A stretch of 64,000 bases of DNA from Desulfofustis limnaeus (lineage in GTDB: Bacteria; Desulfobacterota; Desulfobulbia; Desulfobulbales; Desulfocapsaceae). The stretch lies in assembly GCF_023169885.1 (NCBI RefSeq), contig NZ_AP025516.1, forward strand, positions 2,138,501 to 2,202,500, in the 5' to 3' direction. A model generated the notes under the pieces. The model ran no database searches. It had not been told where the DNA came from and was given only the letters and a program-made list of their open reading frames with translations. How positions within the stretch are numbered: position 1 is the first letter of the stretch; each line of letters begins with the position of its first letter. Of this stretch, positions 45,028 to 61,034 are shown piece by piece. Both the position numbers and the translations under genes were made by a program.

Positions 45028-46248
45028 TTATTTATTTAGAAAGCTAGAATTCTGCAGGTTTACGTCCATTTCTTTCAGCCCTAACAGATGCATTTGATTT
45101 AATAGCACAAGAAATAATTTGCTTTTTACTGCTTCATATGAAAACTTCTTGTGATAAAAGTGAGCAACACTAATTCTTTCTAACTTTGGCAAAAACTCAA
45201 CAATTTCATCAAATGCCACAAGAAATTCTTGTGTGTTCGAATAGCATTTAAACCATTTTTTACCGACAAAATCATCATAGCCATTAACTGAATTAAAATG
45301 TGTAATTATTGGCAAACCATTCCTTAACCCATCCATAAGACGAAGTTTTATACCGCTTCCTAAACTCACCGGGCAAACGAAGATATCAGCTTCCCTGACA
45401 ATATCGTTAATGTCATATGGATTTGATATTAAAACGAGATTCTTTTCTTTTTCGGATATGGATCTAAGTTTTTTGGAAGGATTCCGTCCTGCTAAAGTGA
45501 CTTTAATACCTGAGTATGACCGTAGAAGCTCTGGATAGCAATTCTTAAGAAACGACAATATGCCTTTTTCGGTCTGTCTATCTCCCAATGATCCTGTAAT
45601 GATAATCTTGATATTGGTTGGGTTGAAAGATTTACGCTGATCAGTTCTATCATGGAGATCATGAGGATAAGGATCACTACACCCGATCGAATAGCATTTT
45701 TTACTAGGATCGTGCAAATTCATCAAATCAGTTGCATCTTTATTGGTTAAAGCCAAGTTTAATGAGCTTTTTCGATAGGCATTTCTTTCTGCCCTATTGA
45801 TGAAATATCCTGTCAAGCCCCATAATGTTGTATTGGTCTTTTCATCAATTGAATATTTTGATTCAATATTGTGATGGAGAGTAATGGATGGGATATTCAT
45901 TTTTTGGGTCATATTAACAATATCCCCTGCTACTATACTACCGTCGAAAATCACAAATCGAATTGACTTATGATTATTTCGCATGAAATGTTGTGCCTCT
46001 TTTTTAAAACGATGTAACTGAATACTAAACAATCCAGATAATTTCTCAAAAAACGACCTAGCTTTTACCTTAACAAAAGAGATTTTTGGATTTAAAAACA
46101 CAGTTTCATCACACGAAGAAGTAACCATAACGACGATATTAGAATTAAAAACGTCTGCAAGCATATTTATGAAAGTCTTAGTTGCCAAAGAACCGCCTTT
46201 TCTAATTGATGGGTCATTGCGAGTTATCAAAAAAATGATATTATCCAT
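45028..46248 (-). CDS. Glycosyltransferase, GT-B fold (family 4)
   Basis: 406 residues. IIFLITRNDPSIRKGGSLATKTFI gives the GT-B N-lobe loop, LHHNIESKYS the acceptor region, and IKIIITGSLGDRQTEKGILSFL begins the C-lobe. FVCPVSLGSGIKLRLMDGLRNGLPIIT is the E/D-rich nucleotide-sugar site of group 1 transferases. It overlaps the next upstream gene by 8 nt. AT-rich composition matches the surrounding glycan block. Confidence 0.85.
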   Translation of the reverse strand: MDNIIFLITRNDPSIRKGGSLATKTFINMLADVFNSNIVVMVTSSCDETVFLNPKISFVKVKARSFFEKLSGLFSIQLHRFKKEAQHFMRNNHKSIRFVIFDGSIVAGDIVNMTQKMNIPSITLHHNIESKYSIDEKTNTTLWGLTGYFINRAERNAYRKSSLNLALTNKDATDLMNLHDPSKKCYSIGCSDPYPHDLHDRTDQRKSFNPTNIKIIITGSLGDRQTEKGILSFLKNCYPELLRSYSGIKVTLAGRNPSKKLRSISEKEKNLVLISNPYDINDIVREADIFVCPVSLGSGIKLRLMDGLRNGLPIITHFNSVNGYDDFVGKKWFKCYSNTQEFLVAFDEIVEFLPKLERISVAHFYHKKFSYEAVKSKLFLVLLNQMHLLGLKEMDVNLQNSSFLNK

Positions 46249-47404
46249 TCAATTCCTCTAGTTTCTCATAGAACCTGTCAGTAATCACTTTCCACTCTAT
46301 TGTGTTGAAGTCAAATCGGTAATCAATTTCTTTAATTGATAAACTTTCATATATATTTTTAACAAAGCTATCTGTATCGTATGAATATTTCACACCGATG
46401 TCTCTCAGGTGCTCATAATCGTGATATACAACTATAGGTTTCCTAGCAGCCATAGCCTGATATAATTTAGCTGTAATTCCCCATACTTTTTGCTTATAAA
46501 GATCTCTTGGATTAGGGACGATAAAAACATCACAATTAGTTATCCAACGAGCAACTTCCTCGGGAAATATTCCTGGGACATATTGAATGTTTTTTGACTT
46601 GTTTACCTCCAAGAGATATTTTTTGGATGGCTTTTCAGGACAAACTATGACGAAGTTAATATTTTTTGCTTTCTGAGCCGAGTTAATGATCAATTCCCAA
46701 TCTACAGGACGAGCGCCAAGGTAGAGAGCTGAGCAATTACCGCTTAAAAGATAAGGCGTTTCATATTTGTCTTGAAATTCTTTATAACTTACACCATTTG
46801 AGAGAATAGAATATTTTTCATTACCAATAAAACAATTAGTCTTTTCTTCGTACGATTTTAATCCTTGCTCATTAACAAGAAATGTCCAGTCAGAGGCCTT
46901 AATCAATTTTTCTTCGTAATCACCTACATCACACCAAGAATCAACCACGATGGGATCTGACGGACGGTAAATTAATTTGCTTTTTGGAAATATTTCTTTA
47001 ATTCTCTCAAAAAGTAGTACTGACTCTGTGGATTCAAATATAAAAAAGTCAGTTTCATTAAAATACTTATTTGCAAATTTTTTAAAATTGAACACAAAAG
47101 ACTGTTGACATGCAATTTTAAAACTTTGCGAAACACGTTTGCTTAATATATTGGGTAGCGCAAAGTTCGGATTTGTTATATTTAACAGTTTACCACCATC
47201 TAATTCATACGTCTTCCCCTTTGATAGACTAAGAAGCATTTTAAAGTTTAGCCTTTCATCAAACTTAAGCATCGAATATAGTGGTCTAGGGAAAGAAAAA
47301 AAAACTGTTTCGTAGCCTCTCCGAACTGCTGTTTCGGCAAAGACATGAAACCCCCCTCTACGTTTTGTTCTATAATTATGGAAAGTTAAAAAAACTATTT
47401 TCAT
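46241..47404 (-). CDS. Glycosyltransferase, GumK-like
   Basis: 387 residues. The N-terminal KIVFLTFHNYRTKRRGGFHVFAE resembles the opening of GumK-type (GT70) glucuronosyltransferases, with YRPSDPIVVD as the inter-domain stretch and NGVSYKEFQ, WITNCDVFIVPNPRD and YQAMAARKPIVVY as the donor-site C-lobe. Transfer of a uronic acid is possible but not proven. It is coupled to the downstream transferase by an 8-nt overlap and lies 3 nt from the wzy gene. Confidence 0.75.
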   Translation of the reverse strand: MKIVFLTFHNYRTKRRGGFHVFAETAVRRGYETVFFSFPRPLYSMLKFDERLNFKMLLSLSKGKTYELDGGKLLNITNPNFALPNILSKRVSQSFKIACQQSFVFNFKKFANKYFNETDFFIFESTESVLLFERIKEIFPKSKLIYRPSDPIVVDSWCDVGDYEEKLIKASDWTFLVNEQGLKSYEEKTNCFIGNEKYSILSNGVSYKEFQDKYETPYLLSGNCSALYLGARPVDWELIINSAQKAKNINFVIVCPEKPSKKYLLEVNKSKNIQYVPGIFPEEVARWITNCDVFIVPNPRDLYKQKVWGITAKLYQAMAARKPIVVYHDYEHLRDIGVKYSYDTDSFVKNIYESLSIKEIDYRFDFNTIEWKVITDRFYEKLEELNG

Positions 47405-47407
47405 TTT

Positions 47408-48613
47408 TCAAAAAGATATTTTCACTTTCTTTACCATTGTATCCTGAAATAAAAACAAAAACAGAAATGGAACAAAATATTGGGCGTTATAATACACAGC
47501 CTCAACATTCATTAAAACAATAATATTTATGATTAATGATAAATTTAACAAACTATAATATGAATCTCTAGGAACCAAAATTACTATATAAATTATTACG
47601 CTAAATAGTATTCCAAATCCAACCAAACCATAATCAACTAAACACAGCAGATAGGAATTATGAGGTGAAATAGAATTGAGAGACTTGACATCAAGATAGC
47701 GACCTCGTTCGTAAGGCATTAGAAAACTACTACCATTCCCAAAAATTGGATTTTGACTTACGTAATGGATTGTTTGTTTCCAACGATCCTCTCTTCCCGA
47801 TGTAATATCTCCACTTTCAGTACCATATGCAAATCTCTCTTCCATACTACTATACAGATTGATTCTATTGTTTACCAAATAAATTACGAAACTAATTAAA
47901 ATAACTGCCAGCATCGTTTGTAAAATTTTTTTAATGCTGATCGGCATAAAATTTTTTAATATCACAACAAAAAGAAAAAGTACCTGTGCGACGAGCGCTC
48001 CTCTGCTTAGAGTGAAAGCTATTGATAATGAAGTAATTGCAAGGATTGCTATACTCATTATCTTTTTATCAATAAACGATTGATAGAGTATCACCCCAAG
48101 TATAAAAACTACTATGGCGGAGCCAGTAGCTGCTCCGATCGTAGTGCTAATTCGTACTATTTCTCCAAAACGTTGATAGTGCTCAAGACCTCCATAAGAA
48201 AGGATTGTTGAAAACAGGAATATCTCAAGACAGATGCAAGTCCAACCCAAAAGAATAGGCCATCTGACTATTGTTATGTGCTTCGGCTCTAATGGGTATA
48301 AAGAGTATATAAATAAAAATAAAAAAAGATCGCTACCCCCATAAAAATTTATTACGGCTGTCTCTATTGGCTCAACTTTCAAAAGGCAGTTAATCATCAA
48401 ATAATAAATACCTATCAATGCTAATAAGATTAGTGACTTATGTATTTTCCTCCTTTTAGGGCAAACTAGCGGTAACAGAAAATAGAGCAGCTCTGGCAGA
48501 AAGAGTGGATAACCAAAAATATGCACGGTAAGCCGGATTTCCCATGTTTCAAGGAATATCCATCTCAGCAGAATTGGCAGGACAAGGATATAGCAATAGA
48601 TATTATTTTTCAT
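47408..48613 (-). CDS. Wzy-type O-antigen polymerase/ligase family protein
   Basis: 401 residues from the ATG at 48613 (a TTG 13 codons upstream would overlap the flippase stop). About 11 membrane segments, and the Wzy_C signature region NPIFGNGSSFLMPYERGRY then SPHNSYLLCLVDYGLVG, with the H-N-S motif of the family. It polymerises flipped repeat units on the periplasmic side. Together with the flippase at 48.6 kb it makes this block a self-contained Wzx/Wzy pathway that could use the WecA-PilZ enzyme for initiation. Confidence 0.85.
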   Translation of the reverse strand: MKNNIYCYILVLPILLRWIFLETWEIRLTVHIFGYPLFLPELLYFLLPLVCPKRRKIHKSLILLALIGIYYLMINCLLKVEPIETAVINFYGGSDLFLFLFIYSLYPLEPKHITIVRWPILLGWTCICLEIFLFSTILSYGGLEHYQRFGEIVRISTTIGAATGSAIVVFILGVILYQSFIDKKIMSIAILAITSLSIAFTLSRGALVAQVLFLFVVILKNFMPISIKKILQTMLAVILISFVIYLVNNRINLYSSMEERFAYGTESGDITSGREDRWKQTIHYVSQNPIFGNGSSFLMPYERGRYLDVKSLNSISPHNSYLLCLVDYGLVGFGILFSVIIYIVILVPRDSYYSLLNLSLIINIIVLMNVEAVYYNAQYFVPFLFLFLFQDTMVKKVKISF

Positions 48614-48632
48614 CACTAACGGAACAGCAAAG

Positions 48633-50159
48633 TCAAGCTCTCCTAATGGCAAGTGTCTTAATTAGTGTCCGGGCCTGACATCTTTCAGCAGGCAATAAAC
48701 CCCAAAAATACGTTAACACCAGCCCGGCAATTATGTTTATTACTAAAAGAATGGTTCCCCTTGTAAGCTCCTCTTCAAAAGAAATGTTGACAATCCAGCC
48801 TGTTGTAATTAGAGGCAAGAAGACGGTCATAGACTTAAGAAGCACTTCTTTAACCCACTGCCTTAAATTATAGTTCAATATTTTATTTAGATACAACAAC
48901 CTGATCAGGCCTATTAAACAAGTGAAAACGATGAGACTTAACAATGCCACTATCGGTTGACTACCGATTTTGAGCAGGTAGTATAAAGCGGGCAGATTTA
49001 AAACGGCAACAATCCCAGAAAAAACCTGATAATTCCTTATAACTGCAGTTGCCTGTATTGCATAGACCAAAGGTCCAACATATGTATCGACCAGTACGTT
49101 GAACAACAATAGCCTTACAAAAACTTCCGTAGCTTCAGGAACCTCTTCTAGCCAAATACTCAACAGACTTTTTATTTCAAAAAAGATCGGGATTCCTACT
49201 AACAAGAGGAAGTAAACGGAGACCCTTGTTGAGATACTAATTATGGCAAACATCTTTTTGAAGTCATTAACTCCATATGATTTCACTAGCAGGGGATTAA
49301 TTGCGTTAATTACTACTTGTGACAATATGGCCAATTGGTTAGTTAATTGAGAGGCTATACTTAATGCAGCAACTACAATTGAACCCAAGAAATAATTGAA
49401 AATTATTATCATCCCTTGTCTTCTTCCCATGGACGCGATTGAACCAAACAATGACCATCCTGCGAAGGTAGTAAGAGTTAAATATCTGCTCGTCTCAACT
49501 TTGCTAAATGAAAAACGACACTCTTTATGTACTGCTGATGTATAAATCATGAAACCTAAGGACAACATCGTGCTCCCACAAAGCAAGAAAAAACCATAAA
49601 TTTTGAGTTGGTTATCTGAGAATAAAGTTAAAAGTAAAGCAGCTATAAATTTAATAAAACTTTCAAATATTCCTAGAATGGCAACAAGATGAATCTTTTC
49701 TTTAGCAAACATCATTGCCTCATAAGGTATTCTCATTATATTTGCTAGAAAGATTCCAAGAACACAATACATCAATACTTCTGCAGTCTCGACTCTATCT
49801 ACCGGAATATTTAAATATTGCTCTAAAATCGGCTTAGCAAATGCTGCCCCTATTCCCCCAATTACCAACGTAAAAACGAAATGAACTCTAAGACTTGCAT
49901 TAAAGGTCTGGTTAACGAAGGTACTATCCTGTCCTGTCGCTAAATCAAAAGCAAAGTGCCTCTGATTGCTCGACGTCATCGAAGTACCAAACATTGTTAT
50001 TAACATAATAAAGCCGGCAACAACATTGTAGATTCCAAAATCTGAAATCCCAATATTTATCAAAAGAATACGGGTTGTGATTAGCGTTAAACCAGTGCTC
50101 ACAAGAAGCCTAAGATATAGAAACAACGAATTTTTGACCACTAATCGGCCTGCTCTCAT
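48633..50159 (-). CDS. Wzx-type flippase
   Basis: 508 residues with about 12-14 membrane segments. LYLRLLVSTGLTLITTRILL and FGIYNVVAGFIMLITMF match the N-terminal helices of PST/MATE-like oligosaccharide flippases; FAKEKIHLVAILG is the conserved cytoplasmic loop. It is the first gene of the AT-rich minus-strand operon, with a promoter at 50250-50277. It differs in sequence from the flippase at 89-1642, as expected for separate repeat units. Confidence 0.88.
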   Translation of the reverse strand: MRAGRLVVKNSLFLYLRLLVSTGLTLITTRILLINIGISDFGIYNVVAGFIMLITMFGTSMTSSNQRHFAFDLATGQDSTFVNQTFNASLRVHFVFTLVIGGIGAAFAKPILEQYLNIPVDRVETAEVLMYCVLGIFLANIMRIPYEAMMFAKEKIHLVAILGIFESFIKFIAALLLTLFSDNQLKIYGFFLLCGSTMLSLGFMIYTSAVHKECRFSFSKVETSRYLTLTTFAGWSLFGSIASMGRRQGMIIIFNYFLGSIVVAALSIASQLTNQLAILSQVVINAINPLLVKSYGVNDFKKMFAIISISTRVSVYFLLLVGIPIFFEIKSLLSIWLEEVPEATEVFVRLLLFNVLVDTYVGPLVYAIQATAVIRNYQVFSGIVAVLNLPALYYLLKIGSQPIVALLSLIVFTCLIGLIRLLYLNKILNYNLRQWVKEVLLKSMTVFLPLITTGWIVNISFEEELTRGTILLVINIIAGLVLTYFWGLLPAERCQARTLIKTLAIRRA

Positions 50160-51028: not shown

Positions 51029-51223
51029 TCAGGAAATAACAGTTAAATTACAATATCCAACGAGTTCTCCAGTTCCGACATCGGTAACCACTACACACCG
51101 ATTAATATCGTAAGGGCCACTACCTTCTCCAACTGTTGCTCCTTTACAAGTTCCCAAGACAGCCTCTTCCATCGTACTTCTTATAAGAATGGTCATGTAA
51201 GGTTTTGTCCACTTGCTTTTCAT
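51029..51223 (-). CDS. Putative RiPP precursor peptide A
   Basis: 64 residues. Leader: W5-T-K-P, T11-I, R15, E19-E20, V22-L23; then C26-K27, a Gly-rich stretch with SGPY (35-38), C43, C58 and final Ser64 in the ending CNLTVIS. Peptides B and C share the same pattern, including exactly 20 residues between W and the C of CK. AGAGG lies about 7 nt before the ATG. It is 29 nt downstream of a radical SAM gene and closes the maturation operon. I infer that it is modified by one or both radical SAM enzymes. Confidence 0.8.
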   Translation of the reverse strand: MKSKWTKPYMTILIRSTMEEAVLGTCKGATVGEGSGPYDINRCVVVTDVGTGELVGYCNLTVIS

Positions 51224-51252
51224 AATTTCCCTCTTGGTTTAGAATTGAAAGA

Positions 51253-52422
51253 TCAATCACTAGTTAGATAGTAAGTTTTCTCGGTATTTAAATAGTCTTT
51301 TTTTATACTTCCGTATGTTAAATTGCCGTAACGCCTTTCAGCGACCTCGCAAAAATAACTGCATGCTAGTTCCAGAACCCCAGTTTCCAGATAGGCATGT
51401 GCAGGGCACCAAATACAAAAATTGATCAGAGGGCAGACGCCGCACTTCTCAAGAAAATCTCTGCTGTCTGTTTGCATATTCCGAATTTTTGAAGTCAACG
51501 AAGTTTTCGCTTCACTTACCGATGTGTTCCTCAAATCCTGCATACAATCCGGGTGCCAAAGTGAAGAGCAGAGCCGGTAATTACCATTATAACTGACGAC
51601 AAAGTCAGACAACCCAGCACCACAGGTAAACAGATATGGTTTCTCAGGTTTTATTCTGTCCGACAATACCAGTTTATCACAGTTTTTTGTGAGAGCACTA
51701 AACCGGACTTTGTCGGAGCATTCAAGGACTGCTATTTCTTCTGGGGTAAGCCGTTGGTTGCGAATTTCCTCGTTCTGCTTTTCATCCCGATCAAAGCGAA
51801 GATGCAGAAGCGGGTCGAACCGGAAGGGTGCATTGCTGTGCTTCCGGCAAAATGCTGCAATTGTTGCAAACTCTTCCAGATTGGCTTTGATGGTTACATT
51901 TTTCAAATCGACCGGGATCTTGTTCTGCAGGAGCCGATCGATACCATCCTTAAATGAACTGAATAGTTCAGGTTTGCGTGTAACAGCGGTATAGGTTTGC
52001 TGCGTTATACCATAGACGGTTACTTCCAAGTTTCGGGGTGGGTATTTTTTGAACAAATCAATATGCTTCTGCGTGATGAGCGTGGCATTGGTAAAAACAC
52101 TAACTAGCAGACCTTTACGCTTAAGATAGAGGTAAATCTCTTCAAAATCTTCCCTGAGCAGCGGTTCTCCTCCCGTTATCAGACACCAGACGGCACCAAG
52201 ATCGACTGCCTGATCAACGATGTGCTTGATCTCTTCGAATGTGAGTTCTTCCGCTTTTGCCTTTTGGTCGTCTTCCGGGAGGTTGATGTAGCAATGCCGG
52301 CAGTTGTTGTTACAGCGGGCGGTTATTTCCAGGGTGAAGGAGATGAGGCTGTGCTTCTCGCGTTTTTTTTGCCAGAGATCGAAATCAGGCAGGGACTGGG
52401 TTTGTACGTATGAGGTGCTCAT
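51253..52422 (-). CDS. Radical SAM/SPASM peptide-maturase 1
   Basis: 389 residues. The AdoMet cluster motif CNNNCRHCY has Cys at 37, 41 and 44; WCLITGGEPLLREDF is the GGEP block. The C-terminal SPASM region is Cys-rich: FTCGAG, YRLCSSLWHPDC, and KCGVCPLINFCIWCPAHA with a later CSYFC, enough for two auxiliary Fe-S clusters. SPASM enzymes make Cys-thioether or C-C links in RiPP precursors. Its start overlaps the S26-like gene by 4 nt, and precursor A follows directly. Paralogous to the enzyme at 53.3 kb. Confidence 0.9.
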   Translation of the reverse strand: MSTSYVQTQSLPDFDLWQKKREKHSLISFTLEITARCNNNCRHCYINLPEDDQKAKAEELTFEEIKHIVDQAVDLGAVWCLITGGEPLLREDFEEIYLYLKRKGLLVSVFTNATLITQKHIDLFKKYPPRNLEVTVYGITQQTYTAVTRKPELFSSFKDGIDRLLQNKIPVDLKNVTIKANLEEFATIAAFCRKHSNAPFRFDPLLHLRFDRDEKQNEEIRNQRLTPEEIAVLECSDKVRFSALTKNCDKLVLSDRIKPEKPYLFTCGAGLSDFVVSYNGNYRLCSSLWHPDCMQDLRNTSVSEAKTSLTSKIRNMQTDSRDFLEKCGVCPLINFCIWCPAHAYLETGVLELACSYFCEVAERRYGNLTYGSIKKDYLNTEKTYYLTSD

Positions 52423-52919
52423 AGCGCAATCTGGCTTGAGGGAGACGGTTTAATCATGCTGCTTTTTACTTTGCGAATCAGCGGAAGAAGGCAGGAGTTC
52501 AACAGGCCGGATCGCGACAGCACTGCGATGATGAGACAGGCCGGTTTGCTGCAAAAAGGTGCGCTTCTGCCCTTTCGTTCTATGGTGTCGACGATGCCGA
52601 TAATGGCATCGGGGGAGAAGATGCCGTCCGGCGTTGGATTGTTGTCCCCCTTGAGAAGGAAGGCGTGGTTTGAGACTCTGATGACTCTGTGGACAATGAG
52701 CGTATCCCGGTTGGGTGGGCGGACTGCTGCTATATCCCCGACCCTGATGGTTGCCGGGTTTACCTTGGTGAGCGTGAGGATGTCCTGGTCCTTCACAAAG
52801 GGGGACATGCTGCCGCCCTTGGCTTGAAAGCGAAAGGACGCGCCCCGGGCCAAAACGTCCTGCATGAGGGCGGACAGGGCGCTGCCGGAGAGTTTCAGCT
52901 CTGCAGGGGTATTATCCAT
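52419..52919 (-). CDS. S24/S26-family peptidase (SipW/archaeal-like), candidate leader peptidase
   Basis: 166 residues from the ATG at 52919. FQAKGGSMSPFVKDQDIL carries the catalytic Ser in G-x-S-M-x-P, VRVGDIAAVR the binding strand, LIVHRVIRV has His where bacterial type I signal peptidases have Lys (as in SipW/ER enzymes), and LLKGDNNPTPDG is the conserved GDN box. There is no clear N-terminal membrane anchor; the C-terminal part is weakly hydrophobic. The gene lies between PqqD and radical SAM 1 with overlaps on both sides. A role in removing the precursor leader is inference. Confidence 0.75.
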   Translation of the reverse strand: MDNTPAELKLSGSALSALMQDVLARGASFRFQAKGGSMSPFVKDQDILTLTKVNPATIRVGDIAAVRPPNRDTLIVHRVIRVSNHAFLLKGDNNPTPDGIFSPDAIIGIVDTIERKGRSAPFCSKPACLIIAVLSRSGLLNSCLLPLIRKVKSSMIKPSPSSQIAL

Positions 52920-53238
52920 CAAGACGTTGCACCATATTCAATCGCACCAGTTCTTCCAGAATACCGCACACGTCTTTGTTGATGGTTTCTCGTGGGGCAT
53001 CGTACTCATCGGCCAGTTCATCGACCACGGTGTTGATGGTTTTGGTGGCATCGAGTTTCTGCCAGATCATTCTGCCTGTCTCATTAAGGGTGTACAGGGC
53101 GTCTTCCATGTCGCCGATGCCTGAGGCGATGGGTACCAGCAGGAATTCGTCTTCGATCTGCCGGGCCACCACATCTTCGGAGGTGATATAGATCTTATCC
53201 GGGTCAATCACGGGGCGTGTCGGTTTTGTTTCCGCCAT
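52912..53238 (-). CDS. PqqD-like RiPP recognition element protein
   Basis: 108 residues from the ATG at 53238, preceded by AGGA at 8 nt; an in-frame TTG lies 7 codons upstream. VARQIEDEFLLVPIASG and DALYTLNETGRMIWQKLDATK match the PqqD winged-helix fold (strand with hydrophobic repeats, then L-N-x-T-x-x-x-I/W), and VDELADEYDAPRETINKDV the last helices. Such proteins bind the leader and present it to radical SAM enzymes. It overlaps the S26-like gene start by 8 nt. Confidence 0.9.
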   Translation of the reverse strand: MAETKPTRPVIDPDKIYITSEDVVARQIEDEFLLVPIASGIGDMEDALYTLNETGRMIWQKLDATKTINTVVDELADEYDAPRETINKDVCGILEELVRLNMVQRLDG

Positions 53239-53307
53239 TGTCTTGTCCTGGTGTTTCAAAAGTGATCCGATTTTATTATCAGTAGGCGCTGGGTAGAACG
53301 GGCTGTT

Positions 53308-54492
53308 TCAGCCATCTTCGTGTGCGAATTTCTCGATTCTTTCCCGCCAATCGGTTACCTCCCAGGCCTTTTCCCCCGAGGCAATGAGGCCGAGCTGCAG
53401 CGCCTCCTCATGGGCGATGGCGCAGAGGTAGTCCACCGGCGTGTCGAGGGTGCCATGCTCCATATACGACCAGGCCGGGCACTGGTCGCAGAGTCCCTTG
53501 AGAAAGCATTGCCGGCAGCGGCTCACATAGTCGGGGTTGGCGGCACGGCGCTCGAGCGCGCGGGGAAAATAATGGGACAGAGCATCTTCGATGGTCCCTG
53601 TGCTCAAGTCGTAGACCAGGTCCGGGTGGCGCATCAGCAAGCACGGCTGCAGGAAACCGTAGGCGTCCACCGAGCCGCCTTTACCGCACCCGCAGGAAAA
53701 CAACTCCGGCCCGCCGGGGTGCATGAAGCGGGGGATGAATTGTTTTTTTTCTTTGAGGTATTTTGGTTTGTCGCGCGTCAGAAGAGCGATGACTTCCCCT
53801 GGGGACGATCTCAGGTTTTTGATCTGTTCGTTTTTCCGATGGTTGTCTCTTCTTCCCCGGAGGTTGAATTTCACGGTGGAGCCGCCGGAGAGTTCAAGCT
53901 GCGGGTGTCTTTGGAGAAACTCCTGAAACCTGGTGATTTCGTCTGGCCTGCCCGGTAGATGGATGGTCTTCAGCGTGACCGGGATGCCGTGTTCAAGCAG
54001 CAGGTTGACACCGTTCATGGCGGCGGCGTAGCTGCCTTTGGTTCGGGAGACGGCCTCGTATGATGCTTGGTTCATGCCGTAGATCGTGATCGAAACCGGT
54101 TCTCCGGGCGGGTATCGCTGGAAAAGGGCGATCACCTCCTCGGTGATCAGCGTGGCGTTGGTGAACAGGATCACCTTAATGCCCAAACGCCTGGTGTACC
54201 GGTAGATGTCGCTGAAATCTTCTCGCAGCAGGGGCTCACCCCCGGTAAAACGAACGGTCAAGCACCCCAGGCGAGCGGCCTCGGCGAGGATTTGCTTGAC
54301 CCGGTCGGTAGTCATCTCCCGCTGTTGGGTTTCACGGTCATGCTCCGGTTGATTGATGTAGCAATGGGTGCAGTTGTTGTTGCAGCGCTCGGTGAGTTCG
54401 ATGTCAAGGCGCGCCAGTTGCGGGCCGCCGTTTTTCCAGAGCCCTGACCCTGTGAGCTTCTTACGGGTTATATAGGCAGTCCTGGAGCTCAT
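53308..54492 (-). CDS. Radical SAM/SPASM peptide-maturase 2
   Basis: 394 residues. CNNNCTHCY has Cys at 37, 41 and 44, the same positions as in maturase 1; VRFTGGEPLLREDF follows. SPASM cysteines: FSCGCG, LQPCLLM, RCRQCFLKGLCDQCPAWS and YLCAIA. The two enzymes are clear paralogues (same lengths, shared FTNATLIT and GEPLLREDF), so they may act on different precursors or make different links. The start overlaps the HprK-like stop by 4 nt, and the PqqD gene lies 69 nt downstream of its stop. Confidence 0.9.
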   Translation of the reverse strand: MSSRTAYITRKKLTGSGLWKNGGPQLARLDIELTERCNNNCTHCYINQPEHDRETQQREMTTDRVKQILAEAARLGCLTVRFTGGEPLLREDFSDIYRYTRRLGIKVILFTNATLITEEVIALFQRYPPGEPVSITIYGMNQASYEAVSRTKGSYAAAMNGVNLLLEHGIPVTLKTIHLPGRPDEITRFQEFLQRHPQLELSGGSTVKFNLRGRRDNHRKNEQIKNLRSSPGEVIALLTRDKPKYLKEKKQFIPRFMHPGGPELFSCGCGKGGSVDAYGFLQPCLLMRHPDLVYDLSTGTIEDALSHYFPRALERRAANPDYVSRCRQCFLKGLCDQCPAWSYMEHGTLDTPVDYLCAIAHEEALQLGLIASGEKAWEVTDWRERIEKFAHEDG

Positions 54493-55397
54493 GTACGAAG
54501 CAGTTCCTGCAGTCTGTGGTAAATTTCACCGCTCTTGTCAAACCGAAGTCGATAACAGGGAACACGGTCTGCCAGATCTTCAACAAGATTCAGCATTTTC
54601 TCCCACCAGTCTTTACTGACCATGGGCTTTATCAAACAGCCAAGCAACAAGGATATGATTTCAACCCTGTTGGCCAACGGCTGAATCACATTATCAGGCG
54701 CCTGTTCAAGAAAGAAGATCCCTTTCAGCGGTGCCGAGTTGGCAGAAACAATCGGCAGGGTGCCGTGGCTCCAGTTACCGTGGATATGGTACTCATCGTC
54801 CCATTTCCGAACGATCATCCGATCATCGCACAGTATTTCCGCCTTGTCTTGCATCATGGTGGCAATGGTCGATTTACCGGCGCCCGAGTGGCCAACGAAC
54901 AAGAGACCGTGATCGTCCATTTTCATGCCATCTGAATGCAAATAGCACCCTGATCGATCTGCCAGCAATCGGGCCAACAAGATTTGATCGGTTGGGGCTA
55001 GAGTCAGAGAGCCGGCATTCCCCTTTTCAAACGCTTTAAGAACCAGAGGGCTGTTATAGATATCAAGTCGCGTATGATCGAGGCTGACCTGGCTCAATTG
55101 CCTGATCTTTTTTTCTTTGGGGTCCGGTGAGGTTTCCAGAATATAGGTCCAACGATGGTCGTCCGAATAAATGAGCCAAGGTGATTTGCGATAGATTTCT
55201 CGTCCGAACTGGTGCGGCGTAGGCGGCAACTGAAAACGATGCCTGAGCAGGATGGTGTCATCACCCGGCCCGTCGACCTCAAAGAGTTTAAACTTGGGCG
55301 CAAAGGTCGCCTCGGTCAAGGGAAGATCAGACTCCACTTGAAGAGTGATACCGGCGACCCGAAAAAATTTTGTGTGCATATCTGCCTGATCATGCAT
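54489..55397 (-). CDS. HprK-like P-loop kinase of the RiPP operon
   Basis: 302 residues. FVGHSGAGKSTIATMM contains the P-loop (169-177) of HPr kinase/phosphorylase-like proteins, and the following ILCDDRMIVRK is the acidic motif after Walker A in that family. The N-terminal half lacks a recognised domain. HprK-like proteins are frequent companions of PqqD and precursor-modifying enzymes, where a role in phosphorylating a peptide or partner is suspected. It is the first gene of the minus-strand maturation operon. A second ATG at 55379 has the better Shine-Dalgarno (AGG 6 nt away), so the true start may be there. Confidence 0.82.
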   Translation of the reverse strand: MHDQADMHTKFFRVAGITLQVESDLPLTEATFAPKFKLFEVDGPGDDTILLRHRFQLPPTPHQFGREIYRKSPWLIYSDDHRWTYILETSPDPKEKKIRQLSQVSLDHTRLDIYNSPLVLKAFEKGNAGSLTLAPTDQILLARLLADRSGCYLHSDGMKMDDHGLLFVGHSGAGKSTIATMMQDKAEILCDDRMIVRKWDDEYHIHGNWSHGTLPIVSANSAPLKGIFFLEQAPDNVIQPLANRVEIISLLLGCLIKPMVSKDWWEKMLNLVEDLADRVPCYRLRFDKSGEIYHRLQELLRT

Positions 55398-55935
55398 GCC
55401 TACGGCGAAAAAGGCAGCTTGTCGCCAGCGGGCATGTCGATCTCAGTGCGGAGACAAAGCACCCCAGCCCTCCCCCCTCATTCCTGGCACTGGTTTTGCG
55501 TTGTCGGTGGCTGCTAAGTACGCGTTTCAGAAGCTCATCGTACGAACCGAGGTGTATATAACAACATCATCGGACAATGAGTAAAGAGCTAATTGGCTTC
55601 GTTAGAAAAAAAATGGCGTTTTACTGCCACGGTGTCTTATCGGATCCGAAGTACGATTAATTTCCGCGCTGACACCATCTGTTCATGATTGAGAATCACC
55701 CTCACTTACATCAAGAGTTATTCTCATCAAATAGAAGCTAATTTAGCACCTATTGTTTGTCATATACATGTGCCTGTTTTCCTGAAAAGTGCCTTTATTT
55801 TTGTGGTATACAGAAAAAAATAGCGTCTTCCGTTTGCATTTTTTTTCTACGCGACATAGCATAGCTGGAACAGGCTCATTCCAAGATGGTAGAAATTCAT
55901 TACACTCGTTATGGGTCGCTGGGGGGCGACATTGT
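55398..55935. other. Divergent region between HprK-like gene and precursor B
   Basis: About 540 bases. It holds the near-consensus sigma-54 promoter at 55485-55499 facing precursor B. A 27-codon plus-strand frame from 55577 (start MSKELIGFVRKKM) has only a weak ribosome-binding site and is not called. No clear minus-strand promoter for the operon was found; TATATA near 55555-55560 is a weak -10 candidate. Confidence 0.5.
55485..55499 (+). promoter_or_regulatory. Sigma-54 promoter upstream of precursor B
   Basis: TGGCAC (55485-55490), five bases, TTGC (55496-55499), preceded by C: perfect -24 and -12 cores and correct GG-N10-GC spacing. The predicted start near 55511 gives a 425-nt leader before precursor B at 55936. 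The sigma-54 activator at 22.4 kb is a possible partner (inference). Confidence 0.65.
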
Positions 55936-56139
55936 ATGACCGTAGACAAAAAAAGATGGACCAAACCCGCACTCACCATTTTTACACGAACTAATTCGGA
56001 GGAGTCGGTTCTTTCGGCTTGCAAGACTGGTGGATCTGAAGGCCCCTTTCCCTCCGGTACTAACAAGTGGGGCAAATGCAATCAGGGCGCTAGTGGTAGC
56101 CACGGTGCCGTGCATTGTTCTGATCTGACGAAGTCCTAA
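55936..56139 (+). CDS. Putative RiPP precursor peptide B
   Basis: 67 residues from the ATG at 55936; the frame is open upstream but only this start gives a leader equal to that of A and C. W8-T-K-P, L13-T-I, R18, E22-E23, V25-L26, C29-K30, EGPF (35-38), C48, C61 and final Ser67 (ending CSDLTKS). W to C is again 21 positions. The core also has Gly/Ser-rich GASGSHGAVH. A GGGGGG run lies about 9-14 nt before the ATG, a loose ribosome-binding site. It points away from the maturation operon and toward the ABC/YdcF block. Confidence 0.8.
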   Translation: MTVDKKRWTKPALTIFTRTNSEESVLSACKTGGSEGPFPSGTNKWGKCNQGASGSHGAVHCSDLTKS

Positions 56140-56223
56140 CCTTGGCGTGGCGGCTTCTTCAACTTATTAATCGGGTGTTTTCGCAGACAACAGCTAAAGC
56201 TATAACCTACTGAAACGATAGGT

Positions 56224-56862
56224 TTACACATCAAACAAAAGCTTTTTCTTCAGCCACGCCTTCCCTCGCAAGATTATCTTGTAGTCAAGAACGAGATGGC
56301 CGGAAACAAAATATCCGGCCATTTCCGAACTGCTTCCCCACAATTTTAATAACTCGTTGTAATAGAGTTGTAATTTTCGTTTGGTGGGGTGCTCATCTTG
56401 AACAGGGTAGTGGTGGACTGCTATTTCTTTGCCGTTTAAGGCAAGGACGCTTTTCAGCAGAAAGAGCGCGCGTGGCAGATGGTAGGCGGATGTCACCAGA
56501 GTCACCGATCTCACGCCGAGGTCGGTGATTGCCTCGCTGGTTCGGAACGCATCTTCAAAGGAAGAACGGCTGGTGCCGCCAGGCAGCAAGATGATACCTG
56601 CCGGCACATGGTGTTTTTTCGCGATGGCCTTCATGGATGACGCGCTCTGGTTGATGATCATCAGGCGGGAGCTATGGCCGTTTTTGACCAATTGACAACC
56701 CGCCGCGAACCGGTTGTCATCTCCCGGGAATACAACAACAAGATCGGTTTGGCCGGGAGCCTGGGGGGGGCGTTGCAGATACCAGGCAGAACTGAGCTGC
56801 ACCAGCGACACCAGCAGAAATACGCCGAGGGCAAACCGTGCTGTCTTGATGACGAGTCGCAT
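56224..56862 (-). CDS. YdcF/ElyC-like DUF218 protein
   Basis: 212 residues from the ATG at 56862, preceded by AGGA-AAAAGG, 8 nt after the ABC exporter stop. One N-terminal membrane segment (RFALGVFLLVSLVQLSSAWYL), then DLVVVFPGDDNRFAAGCQL, GGTSRSSFEDAFRTSEAI and VTLVTSAYHLPRALFLL, the Rossmann-like DUF218 pattern with conserved Ser/Thr and Tyr-His. ElyC-type proteins act in envelope polymer or lipid-carrier metabolism. Coupled to the exporter, it may act on exported peptide or lipid carrier; this is inference. Confidence 0.8.
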   Translation of the reverse strand: MRLVIKTARFALGVFLLVSLVQLSSAWYLQRPPQAPGQTDLVVVFPGDDNRFAAGCQLVKNGHSSRLMIINQSASSMKAIAKKHHVPAGIILLPGGTSRSSFEDAFRTSEAITDLGVRSVTLVTSAYHLPRALFLLKSVLALNGKEIAVHHYPVQDEHPTKRKLQLYYNELLKLWGSSSEMAGYFVSGHLVLDYKIILRGKAWLKKKLLFDV

Positions 56863-56870
56863 CCTTTTTC

Positions 56871-58727
56871 CTAAGGGGCCACGTGGCCTGCTTCCTGCCC
56901 GGCGAGGTCTCCTTCCACCCAGGCGGCTTGCTTGCGATACATATCCGCGTAGCGCCCGTTGGCAGCCATCAGCTCCTGGTGGGTGCCCTGCTCGATGATT
57001 CTGCCGTCTTGGATCACGCAAATACGATCCGCCATGCGCACCGTGGAAAAACGGTGGCTGATCAAAAGCGCCGAACGGCCGGCGATCAGTTCCTTGAAAC
57101 GCAGGAAAAGCTGATACTCGGTGTCTGCATCGAGGGAACTGGTCGGCTCGTCGAGGATGATGAGCCTGGCATCGCGAAAGAACGCGCGCGCGATGACAAT
57201 CTTCTGCCACTCCCCGTGACTGAGCTCAACCCCATCTTGAAACCAGCGGCCGAGCATGGTGTCGTAGCCGTTCGGCAGCGCTTTGATCATGGCATCGGCA
57301 CCGGCACGCCTTGCGGCACGGTCAATAGCCGATAAATCGTCGATGCGCCCGACATCCCCCAGGCCGATGTTTTGACCTACCGTCAGATGGTATTTGACAA
57401 AATCCTGGAAAACCACGCTGATCTCTCGGCGGATTGCGGCAAGGCCAAGACGGCGCAGATCGACCCCTTCAATGGTGATCGACCCTTGCACCGGGTCGTA
57501 CAGCCGGCAGAACAACTTCACCAGGGTACTCTTCCCCGCTCCGTTGGCACCAACCAGGGCCACCACCTCGTTGGGACGTATGCTCAAGCAGAGGCCTGAC
57601 AGCACCTCTTGGTTATGGCCGGGATAGGCAAAATGAATGTTGTGCAGTTCCACCCCGCGCGTTCCTCGGGGCGGGAGGAGCTGCGGCTCGGGCGGCTCGG
57701 CAACCGTGTTGCGCACGTCCAGAAAGGAGAAGAAGTAAGAGACGAAGAGATTGTCTTCATAAAGGCCGGCAACCTGTTGCAACACTCCCTTGAGAGCGGT
57801 GAGGCCGCGCTGAAAGGCCTGGAAATACATCACCATATCGCCGATGGTGATGATGCCTGTGATGGTTCTCAAACCAATCAGCAGGAAGCATCCCATCAGG
57901 ACCAGGGCGGCGAAGGCCTGGGCGGCAAAATCGGCAATACCGCGCTGCCTGGACAGGGTGAGCTTTTCTCCCCGGATCAGCGTGCGCAGGCTGCTGAACG
58001 CGTTGGCAAAAAACGGGCCGAGGCCAAACAGCCGCAACTCCTTGGCAAACGCATCGGCGGTCAGCACCCAGCTGTAATAGGATGCTTGCCGCTCGCTGGC
58101 GGTGCGTTTGTTCTGCCATCGATACAACTTCCGGGAAAATGCAATCTGCACCACGACGCCGGGTAAGGCGGAGAGAAAGAGCAAAACGCCCACCGACCAG
58201 TGGAAGGTGAAGAGCAGGGCGACCATCGCCACCAGCGTGACGCTGCTGGTCCCGAGCCGGTTCAATCCGCTGACGATGCGTGTCGGGCGATATGGGCCCT
58301 CCCGCTGGGCGCGGTGGAGCGTATCGAAATAGGTCGGGTTTTCATAGTAGGCAAGATCCAGGCTCACCGACTTGCGATGCATGATGTCGTAGACGTGGTC
58401 GGTGACGATGGCGCTTTGCGCTTCGACGGCATACTCGCCCACTTTGGTGAACGCCGCCTGCAACAGGGCCACGCCGGCCGCAGCCGCCACGAGCAGAAGC
58501 AGGGTTGCACTGCCCTCCTCCACCCTGCCGTTTTGCACGGTGGCGGTGATCGTATCGACGATCAATTTCATCACATACAGGGAGAGAAGCGGAATCAGGC
58601 CCTGGACCACCACCAGCAGCGCATTGACCACCGTCCAGCCGGGGCTGGCCTGCCAGACAAAGCGGACTGCCCGATCCACCCGGACGGCATTACGGATTTT
58701 TTCGCTGATGGTTTGTTGGGTCTGCAT
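56871..58727 (-). CDS. ABC exporter (half transporter) without peptidase domain
   Basis: 618 residues: a six-helix transmembrane domain (about 1-340) and an ATPase domain. Walker A GANGAGKST (393-401), Q-loop FQDFVKYHL, signature LSHGE (502-506, where LSGGQ/E is usual), Walker B LIILDE (522-527) and H-loop ISHRFST. There is no N-terminal C39 peptidase, so leader removal would need another enzyme, such as the S26-like protein. It lies between precursors B and C and is the likely exporter of the modified peptide. It faces precursor C across a shared regulatory region. Confidence 0.9.
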   Translation of the reverse strand: MQTQQTISEKIRNAVRVDRAVRFVWQASPGWTVVNALLVVVQGLIPLLSLYVMKLIVDTITATVQNGRVEEGSATLLLLVAAAAGVALLQAAFTKVGEYAVEAQSAIVTDHVYDIMHRKSVSLDLAYYENPTYFDTLHRAQREGPYRPTRIVSGLNRLGTSSVTLVAMVALLFTFHWSVGVLLFLSALPGVVVQIAFSRKLYRWQNKRTASERQASYYSWVLTADAFAKELRLFGLGPFFANAFSSLRTLIRGEKLTLSRQRGIADFAAQAFAALVLMGCFLLIGLRTITGIITIGDMVMYFQAFQRGLTALKGVLQQVAGLYEDNLFVSYFFSFLDVRNTVAEPPEPQLLPPRGTRGVELHNIHFAYPGHNQEVLSGLCLSIRPNEVVALVGANGAGKSTLVKLFCRLYDPVQGSITIEGVDLRRLGLAAIRREISVVFQDFVKYHLTVGQNIGLGDVGRIDDLSAIDRAARRAGADAMIKALPNGYDTMLGRWFQDGVELSHGEWQKIVIARAFFRDARLIILDEPTSSLDADTEYQLFLRFKELIAGRSALLISHRFSTVRMADRICVIQDGRIIEQGTHQELMAANGRYADMYRKQAAWVEGDLAGQEAGHVAP

Positions 58728-58858
58728 ACCTGCGACGCGCTGTATTTCTCGGTGGTTTGGCGACGGGCTTTGTCCGAAAGACGGTAAGTCCTCGCCACTC
58801 TAGCGGAAATGAGGGGATATGGCCAGCGAAAGAACACTGTCGGAGCTTGCCCAATTTG

Positions 58859-58872
58859 TTACCATATGGTAA
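58859..58872. promoter_or_regulatory. Palindromic operator candidate 1 (ABC exporter / precursor C)
   Basis: TTACCATATGGTAA, a perfect 14-bp palindrome in the divergent region between the ABC exporter and precursor C. A 12-of-14 copy lies 46 bp away. Confidence 0.6.
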
Positions 58873-58904
58873 TTACCCTTGCGCCGAACGGAGAGAGAGC
58901 TATA

Positions 58905-58918
58905 TTACCAAATAGTAA
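58905..58918. promoter_or_regulatory. Palindromic operator candidate 2 (ABC exporter / precursor C)
   Basis: TTACCAAATAGTAA, 12 of 14 bases identical to copy 1. It overlaps TATATT (58901-58906), a possible -10 for precursor C, so a bound dimer could block transcription. Confidence 0.55.
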
Positions 58919-58948
58919 CCGGCCAAGATTGAGAACTGATACGACACT

Positions 58949-59143
58949 ATGAACCGCTCATCGAAACCAACAGAAAAACGAACCTGGATCACTCCCCGCC
59001 TGACCGTCATGGCCAGGTCGAAAGCAGAGGAGAATGTTCTGGCCTCCTGCAAAGGCTCGTATGCGATGATTGGCGATGGCCCATTCGGTTTTACCTGTGA
59101 ACAGTTTGACACCCTTTTCTGCAACCAGTCCAACGTCTCGTAA
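58949..59143 (+). CDS. Putative RiPP precursor peptide C
   Basis: 64 residues with a slightly longer N-terminus than A and B. W13-I-T-P, L18-T-V, R23, E27-E28, V30-L31, C34-K35, DGPF (43-46), C50, C58 and final Ser64 (ending CNQSNVS). W13 to C34 again spans 21 positions, and the last Cys is seventh from the end as in A and B. The ribosome-binding site is weak (GAGAA well upstream). It is transcribed away from the ABC exporter, with two palindromes between them. Confidence 0.8.
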   Translation: MNRSSKPTEKRTWITPRLTVMARSKAEENVLASCKGSYAMIGDGPFGFTCEQFDTLFCNQSNVS

Positions 59144-59357: not shown

Positions 59358-59376
59358 TTCGACTATATTGGCGACT

Positions 59377-59727
59377 ATGAAGATCTCTCAATTGCTGACG
59401 GATGATGCTATTCTCACTGAACTCGGGAGCCGTATCGCTCGCTATCGCATCGATCGGCAAGTGACGCAAGCAGATCTCGCCGAGCAGGCAGGGGTATCCA
59501 AACGCACCGTGGAACGGGTCGAAGCCGGTGCCTCGGTGCAATGTGCGACAATCATCAGAATCTTGCGAGCCCTCGATGTGCTGCAGGGGCTGGATCGCAT
59601 GATACCTGAACCACTCCCCCGCCCTCTCGAGTTGCTGAAGCAGAAAGGAAAAGTGCGGCAGCGCGCCTCTTCACACCGCCGTTCGGATAAAAACCCTGAA
59701 GACTGGTCCTGGGGCGACGACTCATGA
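59377..59727 (+). CDS. hipB: HipB-like antitoxin (XRE HTH)
   Basis: 116 residues from the ATG at 59377 (an in-frame TTG is three codons upstream). LGSRIARYRIDRQVTQADLAEQAGVSKRTVERVEAGA is an XRE helix-turn-helix; the C-terminal tail is basic and flexible. No clear ribosome-binding site is seen. It overlaps the HipA start by 4 nt. It would bind the adjacent operator and neutralise HipA. Confidence 0.88.
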   Translation: MKISQLLTDDAILTELGSRIARYRIDRQVTQADLAEQAGVSKRTVERVEAGASVQCATIIRILRALDVLQGLDRMIPEPLPRPLELLKQKGKVRQRASSHRRSDKNPEDWSWGDDS

Positions 59728-61034
59728 CCACCGTTGCCGAGGTGAGGATGTGGGGACGCACCATTGGCGCAGTTTCCATGGCCGATGGAGAGGATTTTGC
59801 CGCCTTTGAGTACGATCCGGCATTTGCCAGAAGCGGGATAGAGATTGCACCGCTGACGATGCCGCTTACAAGGAGCGTCTATACCTTCCCCGAACTGTCA
59901 CGGCAGACCTTTCACGGCCTGCCCGGCCTGCTGGCGGATTCGCTGCCTGACAAATTCGGGAACGCCCTGATCAATGCCTGGCTGGCTTCACAGGGTCGAC
60001 AGCCGAATTCGTTCAATGCTGTCGAACGACTCTGCTACACCGGTGTACGGGGCATGGGAGCCCTTGAGTATGCCCCGGCAACAGGACCCAAGGGCCGGCA
60101 GGCGACACCGATACAGATCGAGAAACTCGTTGCCCTCGCTTCCGAGATTCTCAGCCACCGGAACAAGCTGAGCGCATCGTTTGGCGAAGCGTATAGAGCG
60201 GACGCCTTTAAGGATATCCTGCGAATCGGCACATCGGCAGGCGGGGCACGGGCCAAGGCGATTATCGCGTGGAATCCTTCAACCAATGAGGTTCGTTCCG
60301 GACAACTCCCGGCTGGAGATGGTTTTGAGTACTGGCTGATGAAATTTGATGGGGTCAGCGGCAACCGGGACAAGGAACGTGAAGAAGACCCCAGCGGCTA
60401 CGGTCTCATCGAATATGCCTATGCAAAAATGGCAGCGGATGCCGGGATCACCATGAGTGACTGCCGTCTTTTCGAGGAAAATAACCGGCACCATTTCATG
60501 ACACGCCGCTTCGATCGTCTCGACGGCAACAAGAAGCTCCACATGCAGTCTCTGTGCGCTCTGGCGCACTATGATTTCAACAGAGCGGGCGCCTATTCGT
60601 ACGAACAGGCCCTTCTGGTCATCAGGCAGCTCGGCCTGCCCATGAGTGCAATCGAAGAGCTGTTTCGCCGGATGGTTTTCAATATTGTCGCCCGGAACCA
60701 GGATGATCATGTCAAAAATATCGCCTTTTTGATGGATAAATCCGGAAACTGGTCACTGGCACCGGCTTTTGATATGACCTACAGCTTCAACCCCTCCGGG
60801 AGTTGGACTGCCACCCACCAAATGACCGTCAACGGAAAGCGCGACGACTTTACCCTCGAGGATTTCAAGGCCTGCGCCAGATCAGCGTCCATGAAACGTG
60901 GCCGGGCGGAATCCATTCTGAAGGAGGTACGGGAAACGGTTGCGCGCTGGCGGGAGTATGCCGATGAAGGCGGTGTCCCCGCTTCCTGGCGCGACCAGAT
61001 ACACAAAACCATCCGCTTGAAGACATGGAGATGA
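59724..61034 (+). CDS. hipA: HipA-family serine/threonine kinase toxin
   Basis: 436 residues, full length for the family. LPGLLADSLPDKFGNALI and YTGVRGMGALEY lie in the N-domain, GTSAGGARAKAIIAWNP is the P-loop-like Gly/Ser stretch, and the catalytic core shows NIVARNQDDHVKNIAFL and LAPAFDMTYS (the D-x-N/D-x-x-N catalytic and DFD-like metal motifs). HipA toxins phosphorylate glutamyl-tRNA synthetase or related targets and cause dormancy. It is translationally coupled to hipB. Confidence 0.92.
   Translation: MTTVAEVRMWGRTIGAVSMADGEDFAAFEYDPAFARSGIEIAPLTMPLTRSVYTFPELSRQTFHGLPGLLADSLPDKFGNALINAWLASQGRQPNSFNAVERLCYTGVRGMGALEYAPATGPKGRQATPIQIEKLVALASEILSHRNKLSASFGEAYRADAFKDILRIGTSAGGARAKAIIAWNPSTNEVRSGQLPAGDGFEYWLMKFDGVSGNRDKEREEDPSGYGLIEYAYAKMAADAGITMSDCRLFEENNRHHFMTRRFDRLDGNKKLHMQSLCALAHYDFNRAGAYSYEQALLVIRQLGLPMSAIEELFRRMVFNIVARNQDDHVKNIAFLMDKSGNWSLAPAFDMTYSFNPSGSWTATHQMTVNGKRDDFTLEDFKACARSASMKRGRAESILKEVRETVARWREYADEGGVPASWRDQIHKTIRLKTWR

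Follow-up and report, generated by a model that had tools for sequence, protein, structure and literature searches.

A candidate radical-SAM RiPP cassette with an HprK-like kinase and serine-ended precursors in Desulfofustis limnaeus, with relatives in other bacteria and in archaea

Several described systems share components with a gene cassette at positions 51029-59143 of a 64,000-nucleotide stretch (the window) of the Desulfofustis limnaeus genome, which is a single contig of 4,232,141 bases. The nearest is SynChlorMet (Scm; NCBIfam TIGR04248-TIGR04251: ScmD, ScmC, ScmE, ScmF), which has an HprK-like protein, a PqqD-like protein and SPASM radical S-adenosylmethionine (SAM) enzymes, with S26-like and ATP-binding cassette (ABC) proteins nearby and a cysteine-bearing peptide with a W/YxxP leader. 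Lasso peptide systems of the paeninodin type combine a stand-alone PqqD-like recognition element (RRE) for ribosomally synthesized and post-translationally modified peptides (RiPPs) with an HprK-like kinase, a C-terminal precursor serine and an ABC exporter. According to one report, homologues of HPr kinase phosphorylate the C-terminal serine of lasso precursors, and pseudomycoidin is a phosphoglycosylated lasso peptide (PMC8498205). Sactipeptides and ranthipeptides are matured by SPASM radical SAM enzymes acting on cysteine-bearing cores, while pyrroloquinoline quinone (PQQ) and mycofactocin pair a PqqD-type chaperone with a SPASM enzyme, PqqD being described as the trans-acting RRE of PqqE (PMC8326336). 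GeoRSP (TIGR04302, TIGR04303) likewise joins a PqqD-like protein to a SPASM radical SAM enzyme. A search of the open-licence literature, where absence is weak evidence, returned no publication in which PqqD, HPr kinase and radical SAM belong to a single system, nothing on SynChlorMet or on a RiPP with radical SAM, PqqD and signal peptidase, and nothing on a radical SAM RiPP with a kinase and a C-terminal serine. The papers pairing PqqD with HPr kinase had lasso titles only, and the paper mentioning radical SAM, HPr kinase and RiPP together placed the kinase in lasso clusters.

The D. limnaeus cassette probably directs the synthesis of a radical-SAM-modified, C-terminally phosphorylated RiPP that would be bound through its leader, cleaved and exported. 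This reading is built on the gene set, the precursor family, the linkage of the two across groups, the C-terminal serine, the catalytic motifs and the predicted fold of the kinase, from which we infer each reaction and the role of the product. We regard the cassette as a RiPP class of the radical-SAM kind that is related to SynChlorMet and whose C-terminus is likely phosphorylated.

Three short open reading frames (ORFs) encode the putative precursors: A (51029-51223, minus strand, 64 amino acids), B (55936-56139, plus strand, 67 amino acids) and C (58949-59143, plus strand, 64 amino acids). A first-pass annotation had read these as homologous peptides with one leader pattern, and both their presence and the pattern were confirmed. 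In a MAFFT alignment the residues W, P, T, R, EE, VL and CK are invariant in a W-x-x-P-x-L leader ending in VLxxCK (MKSKWTKPYMTILIRSTMEEAVLGTCK in precursor A), and a regular expression for this leader, applied to all six frames of the entire window, fully matched the three peptides only. Each contains three cysteines and has serine as its last residue; profile matches score 56.7 (A), 60.4 (B) and 51.0 (C) bits. A purine-rich AGAGGG resembling a ribosome-binding site lies upstream of A and a G-rich stretch upstream of B, and C is without a clear Shine-Dalgarno sequence.

The enzymes are encoded on the minus strand as an HprK-like kinase (54489-55397), a second radical SAM/SPASM protein (rSAM2, 53308-54492), a PqqD-like protein (52912-53259), an S26/S24-type protease (52419-52922) and a first radical SAM/SPASM protein (rSAM1, 51253-52422). 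With the listed ORF starts, overlaps of 4 bases (rSAM1/S26), 11 bases (S26/PqqD) and 4 bases (rSAM2/HprK) agree with the coupled operon proposed in the first-pass annotation. The same annotation had placed the precursors outside this operon. That holds for B and C, on the opposite strand, but not for A: this gene shares the strand of rSAM1, follows it at a distance of 29 bp and so closes the operon. It had also called placement on both strands unusual: of the 94 family precursors described below, 81 are close to the cassette and have the same orientation as rSAM1, so the two opposite-strand copies are a minority arrangement. Precursors on both strands, like unlinked ones, are not a defining trait.

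To collect relatives, a three-row precursor profile was run on 144 genomes, the D. limnaeus genome included. Apart from that genome there were three clear matches (E 7e-6 or better) and a weak one in G008, and all four sit within cassettes that encode at least one SPASM enzyme besides PqqD, HprK and S26; five of six weaker matches (E 0.02-0.09), all but L011, look like chance. Four rSAM1 sequences were then used as queries against named genomes, which provided the best 80 of 149 confirmed relatives. Removal of two duplicates (L101 of L018, L103 of L020) and addition of the window and four earlier loci gave 83 loci. A looser precursor regular expression, applied to stop-to-stop ORFs shorter than 220 amino acids (26,452 in all), returned 88 matches, a few of them plainly chance, compared to 10 to 21 in each of 20 shuffles. 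An iterated profile search found 101 matches in 69 of 85 loci, the two duplicates included, or 67 of 83 loci without them.

Five of 99 profile matches lacked VLxxC and were dropped, leaving 94 precursors; alignment of 89 of these (five short or degenerate rows omitted) gave the consensus xxKKxWxKPxLIVLxRGxPEExVLxxCKxxxxxGPxxxxxxCxxxxxxCxxCxxxxxS. Serine is the last residue in 82 of the 94, threonine in 6, valine in 2, and cysteine, alanine, glycine and tyrosine in one each, and most cores contain four (53) or three (23) cysteines. The first-pass annotation overlooked both this serine and the three cysteines of the window peptides. Clustering of the cores at 60% identity reduced 94 to 81, the 13 others being more than 60% alike or without a core longer than 18 amino acids. 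Among the clustered cores serine ends 71 and makes up 9% of the remaining residues, and cysteine occupies the seventh position from the end in 55. Mean pairwise identity is 45% in the leader and 16% in the core outside cysteine. Two to five precursors occur in 14 of the 67 loci (near-identical in L052, partly degenerate in L049 and L050). Short precursor genes with a conserved leader and a variable core are thus linked to modifying enzymes in 67 of 83 loci, as in a RiPP system, and the conserved leader, variable core and multiple precursors form the pattern of a diversified peptide rather than of a fixed cofactor precursor.

The first-pass annotation did not recognize the class, and no convincing match to the precursors was found in NCBIfam, Pfam or PHROGs. 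NCBIfam models, lasso and other RiPP models among them, matched 1 to 4 of the 89 members at E 0.008 or worse, including PadeA, to which 4 of the 89 show a weak leader likeness (best E 0.024); Pfam gave no match at E 0.01 and PHROGs none at E 0.001. Among viral contigs, the three-row precursor alignment returned 22 pattern matches and no relative. Neither a tblastn search of plasmids with precursor C nor a megablast search of phages with the 8.4-kb region produced a match.

To assess linkage between precursors and enzymes, the 89-row profile was run without regard to gene neighbourhood on 395 genomes from the phylum, with at most 16 candidates scored per genome. A strong match (E < 1e-10) was found in 10 genomes, all of which encode an rSAM1 protein above 400 bits; a single further genome, G458, encodes an rSAM1 of this strength but gave no precursor match (Fisher p 5e-19). 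Six of the ten contain sequences already in the profile (window, L031, L043, L060, L064, L097), and so only four constitute new evidence. The outcome that would have spoken against the first-pass annotation, precursor homologues occurring mostly away from such enzymes, was thus not seen. In three genomes the best radical SAM protein scores near 300 bits, with a weak precursor match in G193 and G260 and without one in G424. In addition, four stretches (L173-L176) from genomes G490, G455 and G254 encode precursors with no cassette gene within 6 to 10 kb, and these genomes hold a cassette elsewhere; G475 has two precursors on contigs other than those of its rSAM1 matches.

The search also gave six weaker precursor matches (E 1e-5 to 1e-3; L167-L172). 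For L172, the contig of 4.9 kb contains no cassette gene. In the other five the peptide is accompanied by HprK and by one radical SAM protein, single or partial, with PqqD in three and S26 in four. Together with L021 and L105 (6143-8692) they form a shorter sister cassette of one radical SAM protein, a precursor and HprK, mostly with PqqD and S26. Its seven precursors (in L105 at 7548) have YxxP- or WxxP-type leaders, three cysteines and, in 7 of 7, a final serine, and none has a convincing NCBIfam match. The idea of one radical SAM enzyme per cysteine was dropped because these single-enzyme cassettes also have three cysteines.

Profiles built in this analysis were used to annotate the 83 loci. 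They contain rSAM1 (82), PqqD (78), S26 (73), HprK (66), rSAM2 (64) and a third radical SAM protein, rSAM3 (50, at least three of which may be fragments of other radical SAM proteins). Precursors were found in 52 of the 58 loci holding PqqD, HprK, rSAM1 and rSAM2, and the commonest gene order is rSAM3-HprK, rSAM2, PqqD, S26, rSAM1. In all 46 loci with both rSAM3 and HprK, the two are fused in one open frame. This fusion, present in most relatives and absent from the window, was overlooked in the first-pass annotation. No rSAM3 was found in 15 of the 58 loci, the window included, in a few cases owing to a truncated contig, and an rSAM3 profile run on the D. limnaeus genome recovered only rSAM1, rSAM2 and one partial unrelated match. 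A Methanoregula frame encoding radical SAM and HprK (L161, G148:C10:8728-9624) carries one in-frame TAG and may be a pseudogene or subject to read-through.

By record title, and the titles are those of metagenome bins, the loci span 13 phylum-level groups including methanogenic archaea, with 25 of the 83 tree rows lacking an assignment. In a tree of rSAM1 made with a quick method (83 rows) these groups are intermixed, which suggests horizontal spread of the cassette. The window protein pairs with L025 (support 86) rather than with the copy of its genus-mate, and it is 46, 47 and 44% identical to the cassette copies of L018, L019 and L020. In four copies the CX3CX2C motif and nine further cysteines are invariant, seven of which are read as a SPASM pattern.

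The catalytic motifs of the modifying enzymes are conserved. CX3CX2C is present in 83 of 83 rSAM1 and 61 of 61 rSAM2 proteins and in 47 of the 52 proteins assigned to rSAM3; the five exceptions are partial. Among the 25 best NCBIfam families for each, neither rSAM1 nor rSAM2 of the window reaches a cut-off; the first rSAM3 member is likewise below, as are the others to judge from their best E-values. A PDB sequence search with rSAM1 gave a partial match to SkfB as the best. Because the cores bear cysteine, the radical SAM enzymes probably form cysteine thioethers. The PqqD-like protein is a predicted leader-binding RRE, matching PF05402 at 57.4 bits against a cut-off of 23.4. The window protease, a candidate leader peptidase, contains GxSMxP and HRV motifs and a hydrophobic stretch near its C-terminus. 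Across the family GxSMxP is found in 54 of 54 proteins and HR[IVF] in 50 of 54, which we take to be the Ser-His arrangement of endoplasmic reticulum-type signal peptidases. A review of RiPP leader proteases names neither signal peptidases nor S26 (PMC10885120).

The HprK-like protein of the window carries a Walker A motif (GHSGAGKST) and a CDDR motif; its best match is ScmC (47 bits), and Pfam HPr kinase reaches only E 0.0015. Walker A is kept in 58 of 61 family kinases and CD[DE]R, presumably the place of the HPr kinase catalytic aspartate, in 53 of 61; one partial kinase (L044) of the 61 was left out of the alignment. A PDB sequence search with the kinase profile gave no match at E<=0.001. 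In an AlphaFold2 model (predicted local distance difference test score 94) the C-terminal domain superimposed on HPr kinase 3tqf with Z 10.9 (2.9 Å, 123 residues), and comparisons with phosphoenolpyruvate carboxykinase (PEPCK) gave Z up to 13.0. The model predicts a P-loop fold of the HPr kinase/PEPCK type, although a shared fold shows no function. A kinase of this predicted fold thus occurs together with a C-terminal serine in all three window peptides and in 82 of the 94 precursors of the family, as in paeninodin-type lasso systems, and by analogy the C-terminus may work in the same way. The conserved serine, the predicted fold and the activity of HPr-kinase homologues on lasso precursors, as reported in PMC8498205, are the reasons for proposing a C-terminal phosphate.

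These observations are consistent with a model in which binding of the WxxPxL leader by the PqqD-like protein brings the core, starting about at the conserved Cys-Lys, to the SPASM radical SAM enzymes, of which there are two here and three in most relatives. The enzymes would probably link cysteine sulfurs to other residues as thioethers. The HprK-like kinase would phosphorylate the conserved C-terminal serine, much as its homologues do on lasso precursors, the S26-like protease would cut off the leader, and the peptidase-less ABC exporter would secrete the product.

The cassette differs in some respects from each of the known systems. The window proteins score far below the SynChlorMet cut-offs (ScmC 47 of 125 bits, ScmD 24 of 100, ScmE 81 of 400, ScmF 78 of 400), and unlike SynChlorMet the precursors here mostly have 3-5 cysteines and a C-terminal serine, while many relatives have a third radical SAM protein fused to the kinase. 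Clusters with ScmC above its cut-off occur in L105 (12209-17725) and L106 (1679-6461), each with its own cysteine-rich peptide of the W/YxxP-leader type; the ScmC protein of L106 is fused to an S26-like domain. In contrast to lasso systems, neither an asparagine-synthetase-like cyclase nor a B2 protease is present among the ten cassette proteins scanned with Pfam; radical SAM enzymes stand in their place, and the core bears cysteine. The three cysteines per window peptide recall sactipeptides and ranthipeptides, but here the RRE is a separate PqqD-like protein, a kinase and an S26-like protease are present, and rSAM2 reaches only 55 of 850, 73 of 625 and 66 of 340 bits with AlbA, StsB and PapB, rSAM1 scoring lower. 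Variable and sometimes multiple precursors, a kinase and an exporter distinguish the cassette from PQQ and mycofactocin. GeoRSP scores are 24 of 100 and 53 of 400 bits.

Three other explanations were weighed. That the cassette is simply a divergent SynChlorMet cassette with the same role seems improbable to us, even though ScmC is the best match of the HprK-like protein (54 of 60 family members at E<=1e-5), the radical SAM enzymes match ScmE and ScmF, and a W/YxxP-leader peptide is likewise found, next to S26-like, ABC and SPASM-type proteins, in clusters with true ScmC. For the same reason the combination of HprK with a SipW-like protease, by which the first-pass annotation defined the class, is not unique to it. 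All four Scm scores, however, fall well short of the curated cut-offs, the true ScmC clusters have peptides with a different core and C-terminus, and in two of 12 genomes searched a ScmC gene over the cut-off is separate from this cassette. Still less credible is a peptide-derived redox cofactor like PQQ or mycofactocin, which we regard as very improbable. It would account for the PQQ-like arrangement of PqqD with SPASM enzymes and for the many anaerobic hosts, archaea included, but rSAM2, the best match in the window, reaches only 72 of 381 bits with PqqE and 64 of 265 with the mycofactocin maturase (rSAM1 is lower), cores differ at most non-cysteine positions, 14 of 67 loci have more than one precursor, and an exporter-like ABC protein above 400 bits is present in 20 of 83 loci, with any ABC match in 36. 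A secreted, diversified peptide is the more likely product.

The explanation with the strongest claim after the phosphorylated RiPP, although we think it unlikely, is a radical SAM-modified peptide without phosphorylation. The HprK-like protein would then act as regulator or scaffold, with the serine serving leader cleavage, export or target binding. Three of 61 kinases lack a normal Walker A (L078, L083 and one of two in L086) and the precursors of their loci still end in serine; and peptides beside true ScmC kinases end in AN (L105) and FV (L106), so that an HprK-like neighbour is not always paired with a C-terminal serine. Set against this are the intact Walker A in the remaining kinases, the divergent single-radical-SAM cassettes whose precursors likewise accompany HprK and end in serine, and the invariable fusion of rSAM3 to the kinase, which ties the kinase to peptide modification. 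Further observations count, with those two, against a phosphorylated, crosslinked RiPP. Six of the 94 precursors end in neither serine nor threonine (two in L052, one each in L020, L097, L050 and L065), and the kinases of L020, L097 and L052 have an intact Walker A; the precursors concerned in L050 and L065 look degenerate. No precursor was found in 16 of 83 loci, some of them short contigs, and six of these have PqqD, HprK and both radical SAM enzymes. The bond type is a guess, since the window radical SAM enzymes reach no cut-off among the 25 best NCBIfam families for each. A missing kinase was considered as the cause of the non-serine ends and rejected: no kinase lies in the L052 and L065 loci, but both genomes have one at another place (in L065 with an in-frame TAG), and Walker A is intact in L020 and L097.

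The window cassette is accompanied by a fused permease/ATPase ABC exporter without a peptidase-domain match (56871-58727, minus strand), 71% and 60% identical to exporters adjoining cassettes L018 and L019, and by a DUF218/YdcF-like protein (56224-56862, minus strand, start set at ATG), a homologue of which also adjoins L019. These and the operon genes are as the first-pass annotation described them. Polysaccharide genes adjoin the cassette at 45028-50159 (two glycosyltransferases, one GumK-like, an O-antigen ligase-like Wzy protein and a weakly MatE-like flippase). In D. glycolicus (L018, 15009-18813) a flippase, a glycosyltransferase and a Wzy-like protein adjoin a cassette that is not closely related to that of the window. 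For 122 of the 491 ORFs in the neighbourhood, Pfam gave Glycos_transf_4 in 4, DegT in 3 and GDP_Man_Dehyd in 2 (among 25 of 140 families). Membership of the cassette in polysaccharide clusters is a lead. Directly behind precursor C (59368-61034) are a helix-turn-helix protein and a HipA-like kinase, a candidate HipBA-type toxin-antitoxin pair.

More broadly, we propose tentatively, and with somewhat more doubt than confidence, that the family is an unnamed class of RiPPs, widespread in bacteria and shared by methanogenic archaea, whose cysteine core is crosslinked by two or three SPASM enzymes and whose final serine is phosphorylated by a kinase usually fused to rSAM3. If so, one polypeptide would carry out both radical and phosphoryl-transfer tailoring on one peptide. 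By analogy with pseudomycoidin, the phosphate may act as a handle for further groups. The cassette provides a testable set of precursors and enzymes for a peptide family that, by title, spans 13 phylum-level groups and extends to archaea. Its predictions are that radical cross-linking goes together with C-terminal phosphorylation and that radical SAM and kinase are joined in a fusion enzyme. With the leader profile, annotators could locate precursors that gene callers might overlook, among them copies not linked to any cassette.

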